Shown: positions 6,570 through 35,532 of the stretch, one piece after another
Numbering within the stretch: position 1 is the stretch's first letter
Layout of the letters: the number at the start of each line of letters is the position of its first letter
DNA from: a virus
Length of the DNA: 43,278 nt
IMG/VR virus record: IMGVR_UViG_3300015360_000079
Span: 1 to 43,278 of that record
Reading direction: 5' to 3' (one strand)
Position numbers and translations under genes: made by a program
The notes under the pieces: generated by a model
Seen by the model: only the letters and a program-made list of their open reading frames with translations
The model's database searches: none
Told to the model about the DNA's origin: nothing

Positions 6570-7862
6570 ATGTATGAACCAAATCAAAAACAAGAGACCA
6601 AAAGCCCCGCAACAGAAAGCAGAACTGAAAGTTTTTTCGACCACTATTTTGATTTCACAGCCGAAACGGAATCACCTATTATCTATCATCGTTGGTGTGC
6701 AGTTTCGTTGCTTGGAGCTATCTTGGGTAGAAAATATTATATACACTTGGGACACGAAACAATTTATCCTAATTTCTACACAATGCTTATCGGCAGCCCC
6801 GGCACTCGCAAAAGCACAGCTATTAAAATCGCTAGAAATCTACTTAAAGACTCTGGTTACAAAACCTTTGCAGGAAATAAAACCTCAAAGGAAAAGTTTC
6901 TTCAAGACCTTGCCAGTGGGTTTTCGGTGGACGGAGTTGGGGACGGTATTTTAGGCCAGGAGATTACAGCATATGAAGAAGCAGACGAAACAGAGCCGAG
7001 GGAAGTCTACGTTGCGGTTGACGAAGTCAATGACTTTATTGGCGCAAACAACCACGAGTTTATATCCCTACTTACTACGCTGTGGGATAACCTGCCTTCG
7101 TATGCACATAGAATTAAAACCGGGAGAAGTGTTCGCATTACCAAACCGACAGTTAACATCATCAGTGGAAATACACCAACAGGATTCGCCTTGGCATTTC
7201 CCCCAGAAATTATGGGACAAGGGATGTTATCTAGACTTCTCCTTATCTACGGTGAATCAAATGGAAAAAGAATTCCTTTCCCTGAGGCACCTAATGAGAT
7301 TCTTAGGAATCAGCTCATCCGGAGAATTGTCGAAATTGGAGCAAGAGTGGAAGGGCCTTGCCAAATCTTACCGAAAACAAAAGCTTTGCTTGGGGAGATT
7401 TACAAAAAGTGGGCGGAGATTGATGACGCAAGATTCAAAACTTACAGCACCAGAAGATTCACTCATCTATTAAAGCTTTGTTTAGTAGTTAGTGCAAGTA
7501 GAGGAAGCACAGAACTTTCTGAAGAGGATGTAATCTACGCTAACAGCATTTTAAGTTTTGCAGAGCAAGGTATGCCAGCAGCACTTGGAGAGTTTGGAAG
7601 AAGTAAACATGCAGCAGTTGGGGGAAAAATCCTTCAGATTCTAGAGGATGCTGGCAAGCCTGTTAAGATGCAACAGATTTGGAAACTTGTTCACAGTGAT
7701 TTGAACCGCATTGAAGAACTTGGAGAGATTATTAGAAACCTACTCCAAGCAGAAAAGATTCAGATGGCAGTAGATAAACTAGGCTATCTTCCAAGAAAGC
7801 AAGTAAGGCAAGTGCTTACAGGGACTTTAGATTTTAAACTACTTAGAGAATCGCAACTATGA
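6570..7862 (+). CDS. DUF3987-type helicase-like P-loop ATPase
   Basis: The 430-residue protein opens with a low-complexity tail, then RWCAVSLLGAILGRKYY and a Walker A motif GSPGTRKST at about 75-83. An acidic Walker B-like strand (VYVAVDEVNDF) lies near 150, and a polar NIISGNTPTGF segment precedes an Arg-rich LSRLLLIYGE, as in DUF3987 proteins of phage replication modules. A C-terminal helical part follows. It probably acts as the replicative or primase-associated helicase next to the family A polymerase. The ATPase is clear; the helicase role is inferred. It overlaps the next gene by ATGA. Confidence 0.75.
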   Translation: MYEPNQKQETKSPATESRTESFFDHYFDFTAETESPIIYHRWCAVSLLGAILGRKYYIHLGHETIYPNFYTMLIGSPGTRKSTAIKIARNLLKDSGYKTFAGNKTSKEKFLQDLASGFSVDGVGDGILGQEITAYEEADETEPREVYVAVDEVNDFIGANNHEFISLLTTLWDNLPSYAHRIKTGRSVRITKPTVNIISGNTPTGFALAFPPEIMGQGMLSRLLLIYGESNGKRIPFPEAPNEILRNQLIRRIVEIGARVEGPCQILPKTKALLGEIYKKWAEIDDARFKTYSTRRFTHLLKLCLVVSASRGSTELSEEDVIYANSILSFAEQGMPAALGEFGRSKHAAVGGKILQILEDAGKPVKMQQIWKLVHSDLNRIEELGEIIRNLLQAEKIQMAVDKLGYLPRKQVRQVLTGTLDFKLLRESQL

Positions 7863-22229: not shown

Positions 22230-22943
22230 CTAGTAAACCGGCATGCCAGCATTAAAAAATTGGGTATACATAAAACTTGACCCGCTAGTTGCAATAACAG
22301 AAGAAAGTTGAAGTGCAGCAAACCCTGTAGGAATTGCATAAACAAAGGGTGTGCCACCAAAATTAACACTTACTTGATCGTTAAGATTCTGGATGCTTGC
22401 TGCGGGATAGTAGGTTCCGATCAGGCTGCCAGCATAAATAACCCCTTGACTTACATTGTTTTTATAAAAGGTTATTTGATCAGCATCCAAATCCATTGCA
22501 ACACCAATAACATCCCCGGCAGCAAAAGTAGCGCCATAAGCTGCGCTGACAGAGTTGTTAAATCTTGTTGCATCCTGCCTGTAGGCAAATCCCCCGGAAT
22601 CAAAGCCAAGTTGCTGAGCTAATGTAGAAGTAAGCTTAGCAACTCCAAGATTGATAGGGCCAGTAAGGGCAATAATTGTAACTTCCCAATAATACTTTCC
22701 ACTGCCCTTACCAATATTAGCCCGAACACCAGCACTCAAACCATCAGAAAGGTTTTTAGTTGCAATTAAATTCCCCCCAGAGAGCGTAATGTTTCCACTC
22801 TTGTCTGAAGGATTCCACTGTGCAAGCGTAGTTACTAGGCTGATGATCTTTTGCTTCAGTGCACGAAATTCTGGTGCTGCATTTGAAGCATCTACTGAGC
22901 CTGTTGGCTGTGTCGGGTCATCAGGATTAGGAGTATATGCCAT
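22230..22943 (-). CDS. SPRY-domain virion protein, host-recognition candidate
   Basis: After a short helical start (PEFRALKQKIISLVTTLA), residues 60-225 read as a SPRY/B30.2-like beta-sandwich: GSGKYYWEVTII, later GDVIGVAMDLDADQITFYKN, then YYPAASIQN, VSVNFGG and AIPTGFAALQL. In other phages SPRY domains occur in tail or fibre proteins and are thought to bind ligands. The placement among small tail genes supports adsorption. Domain identity is likely; the ligand is unknown. Confidence 0.7.
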   Translation of the reverse strand: MAYTPNPDDPTQPTGSVDASNAAPEFRALKQKIISLVTTLAQWNPSDKSGNITLSGGNLIATKNLSDGLSAGVRANIGKGSGKYYWEVTIIALTGPINLGVAKLTSTLAQQLGFDSGGFAYRQDATRFNNSVSAAYGATFAAGDVIGVAMDLDADQITFYKNNVSQGVIYAGSLIGTYYPAASIQNLNDQVSVNFGGTPFVYAIPTGFAALQLSSVIATSGSSFMYTQFFNAGMPVY

Positions 22944-31856: not shown

Positions 31857-32002
31857 AGACCTAAATCCTTTTCAATCTCTTTCAGAATCCTAATGGCTTT
31901 GTCTGCATCAAGCTTGCGTTGTTCTTCCTCAGCAATCTGCTGCTTAGTTTTATGAAACTTGCAAGCCTCAGAACATTTCTGCTGTAATTGGTTCTGGGGC
32001 AT
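31853..32002 (-). CDS. 49-aa ORF bridging the two terminase genes
   Basis: An ATG at 32002, inside the end of the small terminase gene, opens another frame and encodes a Cys-containing helical peptide (QQKCSEACKFHKTKQQIAEE, then ending KEIEKDLGL). Its TGA overlaps the TTG start of the large terminase, which is the arrangement of a coupled gene. It may be a real small protein or may act mainly to deliver ribosomes to TerL. Confidence 0.5.
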   Translation of the reverse strand: MPQNQLQQKCSEACKFHKTKQQIAEEEQRKLDADKAIRILKEIEKDLGL

Positions 32003-32525
32003 TCTTGACTTTGTGATTATCATCTTGCTCTCCTTCTAGTGCCTTGCGGGAATCAGCCTCAGCAATTCTGGCCAATAAGTTTTTAGCCCCAATTGTTGCC
32101 ATAGTCTTTCCTTGGACTGAGACAACTTGGTTTTCATTATTAATTTGAATGTTTTGAACAAGAACTTTAGGAAGCACAATCGAAACCAAAGAATCTCTAA
32201 TATTCAGGGTTTGCTCAGTAGGAACACCTGCACCCCGGCGAACCATTTTGTTTACTCGTTCCAGCGCGCTTAGAATCTTGTCAGGATTCATAAACAAGTC
32301 AATGTTTTCTTCGAGCTTGTTCAGAAGGGTATCTTCTAAGCTGTTATATCTTTCATCTCGTAGGGTTGCGCTTTGCAGCAAATCTACTTTCCTGGCTGCT
32401 ACTGCTCCAGCAAAAGTATCATCCTTTAAGAGTTCAGTAATATAACTTTGCTCACATCCTACTGCTAATGCCGCTGCTGCCGGGGAGACCCCGTTTCCGA
32501 GAAGTTCCTGAATCTTTTCCTTCAT
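31968..32525 (-). CDS. terminase small subunit candidate
   Basis: The 185-residue protein begins with a helix-turn-helix-like segment (GVSPAAAALAVGCEQSYITELLK split across residues 12-34) suited to recognising packaging sites. A helical oligomerisation region (LLNKLEENIDLFMNPDKIL) and a polar tail follow. It is the first gene of the late block, directly upstream of the large subunit. AAGGAAAA precedes the ATG, and a sigma-70-like promoter lies about 45 bases further upstream. Confidence 0.75.
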   Translation of the reverse strand: MKEKIQELLGNGVSPAAAALAVGCEQSYITELLKDDTFAGAVAARKVDLLQSATLRDERYNSLEDTLLNKLEENIDLFMNPDKILSALERVNKMVRRGAGVPTEQTLNIRDSLVSIVLPKVLVQNIQINNENQVVSVQGKTMATIGAKNLLARIAEADSRKALEGEQDDNHKVKNAPEPITAEMF

Positions 32526-32569
32526 GGGAGTTTTCCTTGCATGTTTCTAAGTGTTTCTAAGTTGATAAC

Positions 32570-32598
32570 ATTATCTCTTGTCAGGGGTAAAGTAGCAA
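32570..32598 (-). promoter_or_regulatory. sigma-70-like promoter for the late block
   Basis: On the minus strand, TTGCTA (32598-32593) is followed after 17 bases by GATAAT (32575-32570). Transcription would start near 32563 and run into the small terminase gene. A 10-bp tandem repeat (GTTTCTAAGT, 32543-32562) lies just downstream in the leader. Confidence 0.5.
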
Positions 32599-32751
32599 GT
32601 GGAGATCGGAGCTGGCTTTCTTAATTTTTAAAAAATTTTTTTTGAATTTAATTTCTTATGTTGTTTTCAAAAACTTCAGAAATTTTTAACGCGTGACTTA
32701 GGATATAAGAGAGGCCGCACCCCAAAAAGGCCCCTTACCGGCCTGATAAAT

Positions 32752-32774
32752 GCGAATCATTCTCATTCTCATTC
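32752..32774. promoter_or_regulatory. Fur-box-like site 1
   Basis: GCGAAT-C-ATTCTC-ATTCTC-ATTC follows the hexamer layout of ferric uptake regulator sites, with repeated ATTCTC units each one base from ATTATC. Proteobacterial iron-regulated promoters often carry this form. The match is seen; binding is inferred. Confidence 0.5.
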
Positions 32775-32794
32775 AGCCTGCGTGACCAGCTAAG

Positions 32795-32844
32795 TTAGTA
32801 AGTACTCACTATCTAATCTCATATTGTTAGTGAGTACTAACTAA
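32795..32844. repeat. 17-bp inverted repeat with 16-bp spacer
   Basis: TTAGTAAGTACTCACTA (32795-32811) and TAGTGAGTACTAACTAA (32828-32844) are complementary at 16 of 17 positions. There is no T-run on either side, so it is more likely a regulator or enhancer site, or a replication hairpin, than a terminator. A smaller CTACCC/GGGTAG hairpin follows at 32845-32864. Confidence 0.65.
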
Positions 32845-32864
32845 CTACCCATCCTGCCGGGTAG

Positions 32865-32883
32865 GGTAATGATAATCATTCTC
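32865..32883. promoter_or_regulatory. Fur-box-like site 2 (strong match)
   Basis: GGTAATGATAATCATTCTC matches the 19-bp Fur consensus GATAATGATAATCATTATC at 17 positions and contains a 6-1-6 palindrome, AATGAT-A-ATCATT. It lies about 50 bp upstream of a TTGACG sigma-70-like element. Confidence 0.6.
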
Positions 32884-33013
32884 ACTGCGGGGATTGATAG
32901 CCTACCGTCTATCAGTTGACGAATTTTCGACAGGCTGTAGATTCTTCGGCATGGCTAAGTCTTTGATTCTAAAGGCTTTCTTCTAGCCTATGTCAATTTT
33001 TCGTCATTTTGCT

Positions 33014-33029
33014 TGGCATACTTGTTGCT
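33014..33029 (+). promoter_or_regulatory. second, weaker sigma-54-like promoter
   Basis: TGGCATACTTGTTGCT keeps the invariant GG (33015-33016) and GC (33027-33028) separated by 10 bases, and the TTGC block, with one change from the TGGCAC consensus. It lies 69 bp upstream of the stronger copy. Confidence 0.4.
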
Positions 33030-33082
33030 TAGGTTTTAGCTAAGTACTTGATTTGATTGAGTTTTTTATTTTCTACCTAGCA

Positions 33083-33098
33083 TGGCACGCCGCTTGCT
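33083..33098 (+). promoter_or_regulatory. sigma-54 (RpoN) promoter matching the full consensus
   Basis: TGGCACG-CCGC-TTGCT matches the -24/-12 consensus TGGCACG-N4-TTGCW exactly, with GG and GC 10 bases apart. Transcription would start near 33110 and read into the accessory genes from 33204. Such promoters need an activator bound upstream; the 17-bp inverted repeat at 32795 is a candidate site. Confidence 0.6.
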
Positions 33099-33128
33099 AC
33101 ATAGTAGGCATGAACATTTTCTTATTTT

Positions 33129-33154
33129 GTGCAGTGCACCATTGTTAGTAACAA
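33129..33154. promoter_or_regulatory. two short palindromes in the probable leader
   Basis: GTGCA-G-TGCAC (33129-33139) and TTGTTA-G-TAACAA (33142-33154) are perfect odd-length palindromes just after the predicted sigma-54 start point and before the first accessory gene. They look like operator half-site pairs. No matching regulator was identified. Confidence 0.4.
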
Positions 33155-33203
33155 GTGTGAGAGGCTTTTCTCTGTTTTTCAACTGAAAAAAAGGATTAGA
33201 ACC

Positions 33204-33368
33204 ATGAAGAAATCATTGGAGGAATTGGACAATGCCTACACCAAGGCATGTGTCAAGGCCGTTAAGGCCGATTTTGACTACGCCAAGGCCAAGGCAAATG
33301 CCGAGGCCGCTTGGGCCGAATACTTCTCAGCCAAGGCTGCATGCGAGGCCAGGGCCAAGATGGCGTGA
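33204..33368 (+). CDS. 54-aa Ala/Lys-rich helical repeat protein
   Basis: The ATG at 33204 follows AAAAAGGA; an upstream GTG at 33129 lacks a ribosome site. The product (MKKSLEELDNAYTKACVKAV and later ADFDYAKAKANAEAAWAEYF) is a single amphipathic helix with aromatic residues at roughly heptad spacing. It resembles the 68-residue product at 33513 in design. GC content and GGCC density are much higher than in phage core genes. It is the first gene after the sigma-54-like promoter. Function unknown. Confidence 0.6.
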   Translation: MKKSLEELDNAYTKACVKAVKADFDYAKAKANAEAAWAEYFSAKAACEARAKMA

Positions 33369-33375
33369 GACTATC

Positions 33376-33501
33376 ATGTACACACTCCAAATAAATGCGC
33401 AAGGCAACCGAATCGTATGCAAGGGTTCTGTTGCGCGAAACACTTACCGTATTATTTTCGCTGGCAGCTATGCGGCTTGCCAGAATTATCAGTTTATCTA
33501 G
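33376..33501 (+). CDS. hypothetical 41-aa protein
   Basis: A short gene seven bases after the previous stop, with GTGAG as a possible ribosome site. The product (MYTLQINAQGNRIVCKGSVA, then RNTYRIIFAGSYAACQNYQF) is strand-rich and contains two cysteines. The next ribosome site, TAGGAG, overlaps its stop. Unknown function; compact spacing supports it. Confidence 0.5.
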   Translation: MYTLQINAQGNRIVCKGSVARNTYRIIFAGSYAACQNYQFI

Positions 33502-33512
33502 GAGCCACGAAA

Positions 33513-33719
33513 ATGAAGACATCCGCAGCAAAGGCTGCCAAGGTCGAGGCCGCATGGGCCTCCTATGTTAAGGCTAAGGCCGACTGGGCCGTCGCAAAAG
33601 ATGCATGGATCACCAACGCCAACGCCAAGGTCGCAGCCAAGGCCGATGCGGCCTACACCAAGACCGTGCGCGCGCGGGGCGTCTGGGCCAAAGTCAGGGC
33701 CAAGGGCCAACATGGCTAA
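33513..33719 (+). CDS. 68-aa Ala/Lys/Trp-rich helical repeat protein
   Basis: GGAG lies 8 bases before the ATG at 33513. The protein is built of Ala/Lys units with regularly spaced Trp and Tyr (AAWASYVKAKADWAVAKDAW, later AAYTKTVRARGVWAKVRAK). It is basic and probably one long amphipathic helix. It looks like a paralogue of the 33204 product. Nine GGCC tetramers occur in this short gene. It could bind nucleic acid or membrane, but neither is shown. Confidence 0.6.
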   Translation: MKTSAAKAAKVEAAWASYVKAKADWAVAKDAWITNANAKVAAKADAAYTKTVRARGVWAKVRAKGQHG

Positions 33720-33768
33720 ACTTTCAAAACAACAATCTGACGCAATCGCATTAGGGGCACGAAAATGA
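33712..33768 (+). pseudogene. 18-codon duplicate of the start of the 34489 gene
   Basis: MAKLSKQQSDAIALGARK matches the first 13 residues of the gene at 34489 (MAKLSKLQSEAIA). About 35 of 41 bases agree between 33711-33751 and 34488-34528. It then breaks off into TTAGGGGCACGAAAATGA, a leader similar to that of the 33513 gene. It is a recombination scar or a leader peptide overlapping the next start (ATGA). Confidence 0.55.
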
Positions 33769-34121
33769 AAGCCACCGTGGAATTTGTGCGAACAGGCACG
33801 CAAGATGTGGATGTAGAAATAGAAATAGGGGAGCAACCGTTCGTTGCCGCAGATTGGGACAGGGGCAACGCCCGGCATGCCGGGATCACTGGCAACGGCA
33901 CCCTAGCCGGATTGGTGGCTTGCGCTGCTGCTATCCGAGCGCATACTGAGGGCATGCAAATCGGCGAACGGTTGTGGGCCGTCGCGGGCGACGAAACGCG
34001 AGTTGCGGCTTATCGTCGTTTGCTGCGTTACGGATTTGCGCAAGCGTCAGAATTTGGATTTAACCACGACGGCAGTCAATGGCGCGGCGAGGGGCGTATT
34101 TTCGTTTTTCAACGGGAGTAA
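33765..34121 (+). CDS. hypothetical 118-aa protein
   Basis: The ATG overlaps the preceding stop. The protein has a strand-rich start (MKATVEFVRTGTQDVDVEIE), a helical Ala-rich middle (LAGLVACAAAIRAHTEGMQI) and a basic, aromatic end (GFNHDGSQWRGEGRIFVFQ). GC and CpG are visibly high. No known motif. It belongs to the accessory cassette and is probably a recent acquisition. Confidence 0.6.
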   Translation: MKATVEFVRTGTQDVDVEIEIGEQPFVAADWDRGNARHAGITGNGTLAGLVACAAAIRAHTEGMQIGERLWAVAGDETRVAAYRRLLRYGFAQASEFGFNHDGSQWRGEGRIFVFQRE

Positions 34122-34149
34122 GACTACCAGTAGAACGGCAGCAACAATA

Positions 34150-34172
34150 CCGGCCCGCAATCGTGCGGCCGG
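34150..34172 (+). promoter_or_regulatory. GC-rich hairpin between accessory genes
   Basis: CCGGCCCGCA and TGCGGCCGG form a strong stem with a one-base bulge and a short loop. No T-run follows. It may stabilise the mRNA or partly terminate it. Confidence 0.45.
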
Positions 34173-34190
34173 AATCTCAAGGAGAATAAA

Positions 34191-34472
34191 GTGCACATGT
34201 TAACAGACTCAGACTACCAAGCCATCGCCATTGCGGAGGCCGCACTATCAGCAGCAAAAGCCCATACCGGCGGTCGTTATGCCGGATGGCTGCGCCAGAT
34301 GGCGCGCAACAGTTACACGATAGATCCGACACGCCCGGCGCCTGACGCGAACGACGATGAGAAGGAAAGGTTACACGCGGTCGCGCTCACTGCCGTTAAA
34401 CAATGTATTGCTATGGACGCAATATCCCGGCATGACGCCATAGTCCGCGGATGGATTCGCAACGGGCAGTGA
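34191..34472 (+). CDS. hypothetical 93-aa protein
   Basis: AAGGAG precedes either a GTG at 34191 or an ATG at 34197; the GTG has the better spacing. The product is helical and Ala-rich at first (SDYQAIAIAEAALSAAKAHT), then charged (DDEKERLHAVALTAVKQCIA). No recognised domain. GC content is raised like that of its neighbours in the cassette. Confidence 0.6.
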   Translation: MHMLTDSDYQAIAIAEAALSAAKAHTGGRYAGWLRQMARNSYTIDPTRPAPDANDDEKERLHAVALTAVKQCIAMDAISRHDAIVRGWIRNGQ

Positions 34473-34488
34473 AAAAAAGGATAGAATC

Positions 34489-34746
34489 ATGGCCAAACTT
34501 TCGAAGCTGCAATCTGAGGCAATCGCATATGCGATCAATGGGATTCTCGTTGCGCAAAAAATGCAGCAGGAAGCCTGCAAGAATCCCAAATATAATCATG
34601 CCGCGTGGCTACAACAAGAATGTAATTATTGGCTACAAATACAAGCCGCTGGTGTGGAATTGATACCACATCAAAAGGCCCTTGCCGATAAAGGGAGATT
34701 CGATACATTTTCGCGGATAGTTGATGCGAAAATGCAAAAAAGATAG
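34489..34746 (+). CDS. hypothetical 85-aa protein, parent of the 33712 duplicate
   Basis: The leader TGAAAAAAAGGATAGAATC is nearly the same as that of the 33204 gene. The protein begins MAKLSKLQSEAIAYAINGIL and continues as a helical, Gln/Ala-rich product with one Trp pair (AAWLQQECNYWLQIQAAGVE). Its start is duplicated at 33712. Last gene of the accessory cassette; function unknown. Confidence 0.6.
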   Translation: MAKLSKLQSEAIAYAINGILVAQKMQQEACKNPKYNHAAWLQQECNYWLQIQAAGVELIPHQKALADKGRFDTFSRIVDAKMQKR

Positions 34747-34756
34747 CTAAAGGCTT

Positions 34757-34787
34757 AAAATCCCCTTGACGCAGGTGAGGGGCTTTT
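34757..34787 (+). terminator. terminator-like hairpin after the accessory cassette
   Basis: AAAATCCCCT (34757-34766) pairs with AGGGGCTTTT (34778-34787) apart from one mismatch, ending in four T. It overlaps the -35 element of the next promoter. Confidence 0.55.
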
Positions 34788-34795
34788 GAGATAAT
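34766..34795 (+). promoter_or_regulatory. strong sigma-70-like promoter
   Basis: TTGACG (34766-34771), an 18-base spacer and GATAAT (34790-34795) each match consensus at five of six positions. Transcription would begin near 34802, upstream of the 224-aa gene. Confidence 0.65.
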
Positions 34796-34857: not shown

Positions 34858-35532
34858 ATGGAAACCAACCAAGTAATTGAAAATGAAGCGCCGCAAGCCG
34901 TCGCCGAAGTACTGGTGCTGGGAACGAAAGCTGTTAGCGACAAATACACATTTAAAAAGGATAAAACGACGGGAGTTAAGCGCCCGCACTTTATGGTTAG
35001 TATCCCAGTGCCCACACTGGAAAGCCTGTTCGCTGGCGCGGATATTGCCAAGGATGCGGAAGGGAATTATATTCATCCTGAGCATAAAGAGATTTTCAGC
35101 CTTTTGCAGGATGCGGTCAAAAAGGCAGGAAAAGAAATCGTGGACGCATCCACGGATAACGAAAGTGTGGTATTTCCTGATGGGATTTGGGATTTTGGCA
35201 AGCTTGCACGTCAACCTAAATACGCTCGCGCGGGGAGCGGAGTTGAAAAAGAGGATTTGGAAGCGCTTTGTCAGTCGTATAAAGATATCATGTTGCCGAT
35301 TCTTGGCGAAGCGAAAGCGCGAGGGATTAAAATTGCCTGCCAGTATTTTATGCGCAGATGTTCGGGAATTGATGCGGTTGAAAAATCTGTAATCGCAAAA
35401 ATCCGTGAAAATCTCGGTACTTGGTTCGTGAGTATTGACGCGGATAAACAGGAAACTTTTGCGACGGTATATGAATACTTGGATGGCAAGCTTGGCGAAG
35501 TATTGAACCTGAATACGGCTGAAGTGTTTTAA
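34858..35532 (+). CDS. hypothetical 224-aa protein under its own promoter
   Basis: This gene has a strong promoter, a structured leader and a following hairpin, so it is probably highly expressed. The product starts METNQVIENEAPQAVAEVLV, has a strand-rich N-terminal domain (KRPHFMVSIPVPTLESLFAG), a middle with SVVFPDGIWDFGKLAR and a helical end. I do not recognise it. Possible roles are a DNA-binding or replication protein made early. It contains a Cys/Arg pair (YFMRRCSGID) but no complete metal site. Confidence 0.7.
   Translation: METNQVIENEAPQAVAEVLVLGTKAVSDKYTFKKDKTTGVKRPHFMVSIPVPTLESLFAGADIAKDAEGNYIHPEHKEIFSLLQDAVKKAGKEIVDASTDNESVVFPDGIWDFGKLARQPKYARAGSGVEKEDLEALCQSYKDIMLPILGEAKARGIKIACQYFMRRCSGIDAVEKSVIAKIRENLGTWFVSIDADKQETFATVYEYLDGKLGEVLNLNTAEVF

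Follow-up and report, generated by a model that had tools for sequence, protein, structure and literature searches.

Predicted sigma-54 promoters as a recurring property of the early control region in a group of phages

Virulent phages are thought to begin with sigma-70-type promoters, which fire at once, and a sigma-54 promoter gives no transcript before an activator that senses nutrients or stress has acted. Enhancer-dependent sigma-54 promoters assisted by IHF are well known from bacteria, glnAp2 and nifH being examples. The pspA promoter belongs to the same class, and the psp operon of E. coli, which filamentous phage induces, has a sigma-54/PspF/IHF promoter that answers to phage infection (PMC11720261); there, however, the promoter belongs to the host, while in the case described here it sits in the phage genome. 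For Pectobacterium phage Q19 a phage-encoded sigma-54-like protein was proposed (PMC7693777), which links a phage to sigma-54, but as a weak structural hint (E 0.67) for a protein and not as phage promoters for host RpoN. In the literature searched, whose coverage leaves most subscription journals outside, we found no earlier report of sigma-54 early promoters in virulent phages. The locus analysed in this work resembles the bacterial sigma-54/IHF promoters in its -24/-12 elements with N10 spacing, in IHF sites located between candidate enhancer and promoter, and in two to three palindromes of 15-17 bp, putative activator sites, positioned 80-180 bp upstream. It differs from them in that the sites precede viral early genes and in that the activator presumably comes from the host and is not the same in all phages.

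The analysed stretch of 43,278 bases (further called the window) is a whole virus record, with no tRNAs and no Rfam matches. TerL, portal and major head protein are encoded in its left, leftward arm, while DNA polymerase, primase/helicase, a Sak4-like protein and a Dda-like helicase are encoded on the rightward strand; the arms diverge at a 678-bp non-coding region (32526-33203), between the gene in the terS position and the small genes starting at 33204. Of those window proteins that were scanned, none was identified as an integrase, a repressor, an RNA polymerase, a sigma factor or an activator of sigma-54. A CCAAAAAGGCYCCTACCCCC stretch near terS (window 32711-32745) recurs at equivalent places in relatives; read on the leftward strand it is G-rich and then runs into T's, and is perhaps a terminator or antitermination signal.

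According to TerL, the closest cultured phages are Aeromonas P5 (36%), EBPR podovirus 3, the PaP2/119X group (Fredfastierviridae) and Polaromonas phage Tiera, with 31-37% identity to the window protein, and 119X and P5 likewise have genes divergent from terS. In the tree, the window TerL groups with uncultured relatives on a long branch, and the phage is probably a sister lineage of Fredfastierviridae, not a member. P5, EBPR podovirus 3, 119X and Tiera differ from the window in that the pattern TGGCAYRNNNNTTGCW is absent from their whole records. Six MAG contigs from the genome collection were considered as host evidence and, coming from scattered taxa, were taken as binning noise.

An earlier annotation made from the letters of the window (the sequence-only reading) had placed in the terS/early intergenic region an exact -24/-12 match and, 69 bp upstream, a second copy with one change and the same GG-N10-GC spacing. 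Both were found at these positions and on the same strand (Table 1). The pattern TGGCACRNNNNTTGCW has a single exact match in the whole 43 kb record, at 33083-33098; compared with YTGGCACG-N4-TTGCW, this site reads exactly TGGCACG-N4-TTGCT and is preceded by A, not Y. The copy at 33014 shows one mismatch to the consensus and two to literal TGGCACG. In a scan of the whole genome for rival sites these two were ranked highest by GG-N10-GC match, and the sole further one-mismatch match (22341-22356) is devoid of the GC. The two-site arrangement was also noticed in three relatives (L047, L134 and L139). A chance origin had been called unlikely, which stands for the full match and is weak when judged from the window alone, where three matches with at most one mismatch were counted versus 1.14 expected, and 8 of 100 shuffles equal that number. 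Over IMG/VR, the exact 16-mer was present in 23 contigs, roughly the number estimated by chance for a 16-mer, and is therefore uninformative. It is the comparison across related phages which places the promoter-site signal far beyond chance.

Table 1. Features of the window control region and of the genes flanking it (predicted from sequence; distances given as negative numbers refer to the main site)
Feature	Position	Strand	Remarks
terS-position gene	31968..32525	-	starts packaging and structural arm, leftward; adjoins TerL; weakly similar to Tiera and 119X small terminases
Sigma-70-like promoter, leftward arm	32570..32598	-	TTGCTA-17-GATAAT, 9/12; basis is consensus match alone
Weaker Fur-box-like site GCGAATCATTCTCATTCTC	32752..32770	+	14/19
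SlmA-binding-site-like palindrome GTAAGTACTCAC	32798..32809 (within 32793-32811)	.	11/12
Second SlmA-binding-site-like palindrome GTGAGTACTAAC	32830..32841 (within 32828-32846)	.	11/12
Fur-box-like site GGTAATGATAATCATTCTC	32865..32883	+	17/19; 0.02 expected in window
Candidate enhancer palindrome 1, TGACGAATTTTCGACA	32917..32932	+	one mismatch to TGTCGA-N4-TCGACA; -166
Candidate enhancer palindrome 2, TGTAGATTCTTCGGCA	32936..32951	+	two mismatches; -147; 19 bp from copy 1 (spacing shared with L068)
Second exact IHF consensus site	32956..32968	-	58 bp upstream of 33014 site
Candidate enhancer palindrome 3, TGTCAATTTTTCGTCA	32991..33006	+	two mismatches; -92
Second sigma-54-like site TGGCATACTTGTTGCT	33014..33029	+	one change; 69 bp upstream of main site
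IHF consensus site (WATCAANNNNTTR exact)	33041..33053	-	42 bp upstream of main site
Main predicted sigma-54 promoter TGGCACGCCGCTTGCT	33083..33098	+	exact consensus, unique in record; homologous position in relatives
Predicted transcription start	33110	+	A of CA, 13 nt after C of GC; from conserved T-R step
First downstream gene, 54 aa, Ala/Lys-rich	33204..33368	+	no Pfam or PHROG match
Cassette ORF, 41 aa	33376..33501	+	no family match
Ala/Lys-rich protein, 68 aa	33513..33719	+	resembles 33204-33368
Cassette ORF, 118 aa	33765..34121	+	
Cassette ORF, 93 aa	34191..34472	+	
Cassette ORF, 85 aa	34489..34746	+	
Sigma-70-like promoter before 34858	34766..34795	+	TTGACG-18-GATAAT, 10/12, with TG; such sites not commoner than in shuffles
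224-aa protein	34858..35532	+	blastp 1e-4 to L008, 3e-4 to L045; weak profile match E=0.023; comparable gene-order position

Relatives were collected by scanning IMG/VR with TerL alignments, a few more coming from the genome collection; single-protein scans with the window TerS and TerL returned no relative, whereas the alignment scan did find them. Their terminases are 45-53% identical to that of the window, or are kin of those. Each control region was taken to extend from terS as far as the first large gene on the divergent side, and after removal of regions sharing a 40-mer the set contained 80 non-redundant regions of relatives and the window, 81 altogether (56 kb). The weight matrix employed in early searches, in the site alignment and in the palindrome and IHF work had approximate weights; the counts made afterwards relied on simple consensus patterns and are therefore independent of it.

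On the early strand, TGGCAYR-N5-TGCW is present in 33 of the 81 regions, with eight matches elsewhere in 1.6 million strand-bases, and TGGCAYRNNNNTTGCW gave 27 sites in the control regions against about 0.05 expected from dinucleotide-based resamples. When the spacing was varied from N6 to N15, GG-N10-GC accounted for 43 sites and every other spacing for 0-2. The sites split 38 to 5 between the early strand and the terS strand, a site facing terS being found in five relatives, and in many relatives the first early gene begins 50-75 nt downstream of the GC. After clustering of TerL at 85%, the motif occurs in 28 of 61 clusters. The site is missing from 48 of the 81 regions, and its patchy distribution on a first TerL tree forces at least 10 changes; sigma-70 sites that could replace it in the site-negative relatives are enriched in neither group. 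The predicted sigma-54 promoter is a recurring property of this phage group, not a curiosity of one genome.

In 33 aligned sites the sequence TATANTAGTR is conserved just downstream, in columns unused in finding the sites, and its terminal T-R step, likewise conserved, falls 12-13 nt beyond the C of GC. Sigma-54 promoters start transcription about 12 nt past the GC, and the start near 33110 was predicted from this step. The fold of the 5' leader is no more stable than that of shuffles. The two exact IHF sites of the window, at 32956 and 33041, form a direct repeat (D2) and lie between the candidate enhancer and the promoter, a placement frequent, though not universal, in sigma-54 promoters. 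Exact IHF sites in one orientation at -40 to -65 are present in the window and in eight other sigma-54-positive relatives, and the distances of -42, -53 and -65 differ by steps of approximately one helical turn. In the wider range of 20-160 bp upstream, 10 of 34 positives carry the exact IHF consensus, versus 0.33 expected.

The candidate enhancer palindromes of the window are degenerate copies of TGTCGA-N4-TCGACA, and 6 of 100 shuffles have as many; in the relative L068 three copies are located at -177, -158 and -90. Several relatives have two to three copies of a 15-17-bp palindrome at enhancer distance, often about 20 bp apart. These are CGGCAA-N3-TTGCCG in L007, L010, L116 and L117, TGACA-N5-TGTCA in L150, L167 and L041, and NtrC-like TGCACCA-N3-TGGTGCA in L141, L149 and L161, where the copies are spaced by about 20 bp and occupy -124 to -177. 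NtrC-like sites are present in L046 and L155 as well. Over the 81 control regions 12 NtrC-like sites were counted versus 2.2 expected, and in that of the window there is none with up to three mismatches. The palindrome classes were picked by eye, in positives. A blind test for palindrome repeats scored 7 of 34 positives versus 5 of 47 negatives and did not separate the groups by count, the strongest repeat pairs (score of at least 17) occurring in positives only. Because of this selection by eye and the lack of separation in the blind count, we consider the enhancer part weaker than the rest. The combination of TGTCGA-N4-TCGACA with a sigma-54 site was absent from 369 bacterial genomes of one class, and over IMG/VR it was returned only from the contig of L068 itself and from one apparently unrelated phage contig of 58 kb (L180). 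In L180, two GG-N10-GC sites stand around tandem TCGACA/TGTCGA palindromes (L180:2850-3050), and a terminase-like pair of genes follows about 0.6 kb further on.

As to the proposed tie to a host nitrogen, stress or motility signal, NtrC-like sites were seen in some relatives only, and the window palindromes fit no nameable activator site. From the sequences we conclude that the presumed activators differ between phages of the group, and the variation of the palindrome class among relatives, NtrC-like in some, suggests that each phage is matched to the activator of its own host.

Fixed published motifs of other host regulators were counted in the 81 control regions as well. Fur-like sites number 33 versus 5.3 expected and are found in 26 regions versus 4.9 expected. 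Palindromes resembling the SlmA binding consensus GTGAGTACTCAC (PMC3116907) number 11 versus 0.2 expected, and a looser form, TTAGTNAGTRCTNACTAA, occurs in 24 of 81 regions versus 1.4 expected; sites for SlmA, a nucleoid occlusion protein, on phage DNA could let the phage inhibit division. DnaA boxes (13 versus 1.0 expected) of the form TTATCCACA, up to four per region, are present in L046, L141, L149, L158 and L161, and only in sigma-54-positive regions. LexA-like sites are mildly enriched (10 versus 2.2 expected), and boxes such as TACTGTATATTTGTACAGTA were seen in the control regions of L134 and L161. Motifs of CRP, FNR, ArgR, PurR, ArcA and NagC and scrambled motifs are unenriched in the control regions.

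The sites had been described as lying upstream of an accessory cassette, which is correct for the window; in relatives the promoter is located directly before a conserved first early gene and therefore would head the main rightward arm. The first early protein of the relatives has about 205-270 aa and no family match. Its structure, modelled with pLDDT of 63 from the window and 88 from L081, gave no fold match in PDB and one viral match without a name. The product of 34858..35532 is a probable distant counterpart of this protein, and the small-gene cassette 33204-34746 is, as read from the gene order, inserted between promoter and first early gene in the window; its two Ala/Lys-rich proteins were not found in relatives. 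The cassette may rely on sigma-54 more than any other part does, because the counterpart at 34858 comes later and has a sigma-70-like site of its own.

We consider it very probable that host-type sigma-54 promoters, acting with a host activator and IHF, drive the early arm. The sigma-54 assignment of the sequence-only reading is borne out by recurrence, the strict N10, the strand and position bias, the IHF placement and the enhancer-like palindromes. Host RpoN-RNA polymerase would bind 33083-33098 as an inactive closed complex, and probably 33014-33029 too; a host enhancer-binding AAA+ activator would occupy the tandem palindromes within 32917-33006, and IHF at 32956-32968 and 33041-33053 would bend the DNA between activator and polymerase. 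ATP hydrolysis by the activator would then set off transcription near 33110, leading into the cassette and on into the rightward early arm, which would thus wait for a host-state signal.

Other explanations were weighed against this one. A chance match in AT-rich non-coding DNA could account for the low excess in the window itself (three matches versus 1.14), but the comparative counts, made against the same dinucleotides and across distinct phages, refute it at the level of the group; it is arguable only for the single site of the window, and we regard it as extremely improbable. The sites might instead be some other conserved phage element, such as an operator or a promoter read by a polymerase that the phage has modified, which happens to resemble the sigma-54 consensus. 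The conserved stretch indeed exceeds -24/-12, since TATANTAGTR follows, and the strict long motif TGGCAYRN4TTGCWN2TATANTAGTR appears in other viral lineages: before Hsp20 genes in L170, L174, L175, L176, L178 and L169, which form two apparently unrelated viral groups, and before small genes in another lineage (L172:4557-4584, L179:6286-6313 and 7545-7572). The Hsp20-linked motif can have another origin if the host of those contigs lacks RpoN. For the phages studied here we nevertheless find such an element unlikely, as the window proteins that were scanned include no recognised polymerase, sigma factor or activator, and as the N10 strictness, the published consensus positions and the IHF sites with palindromes at enhancer distance make up a sigma-54 layout.

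The control region could also titrate or exploit host regulators for DNA replication or partition, with the sigma-54 sites being minor. Enrichment of SlmA-like, DnaA-box and Fur-like sites, together with the confinement of DnaA boxes to sigma-54-positive regions, would agree with such a role; the sites are, however, strand-biased and often precede the first early gene by a similar, short interval, as promoters do, and we judge this role still less likely than that of another phage element.

Sigma-54 promoters driving the early arm would place its expression under a host-state gate. The phage had been called lytic, in agreement with the absence of recognisable lysogeny genes; against this, Shea, a cultured phage belonging to the closest family with a name, was reported to persist unintegrated, as an episome (PMC13348215), which makes such a gate plausible. 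Tentatively, and with more doubt than belief, the terS/early region may be seen as a multi-input reader of the host state, in which RpoN and a phage-specific activator (NtrC in some) are joined by Fur, SlmA, DnaA and IHF adding iron, division and replication signals, the phage staying an episome until the host state is right and then entering the lytic programme. It is predicted that rpoN mutants would resist or delay such phages intracellularly, beyond receptor loss. If true, the phage would "ask permission" of host physiology before early expression, and this would offer environmental phage biology a concrete and testable mechanism for one of its old questions, that of pseudolysogeny and of infection conditional on nitrogen, iron or the state of growth.
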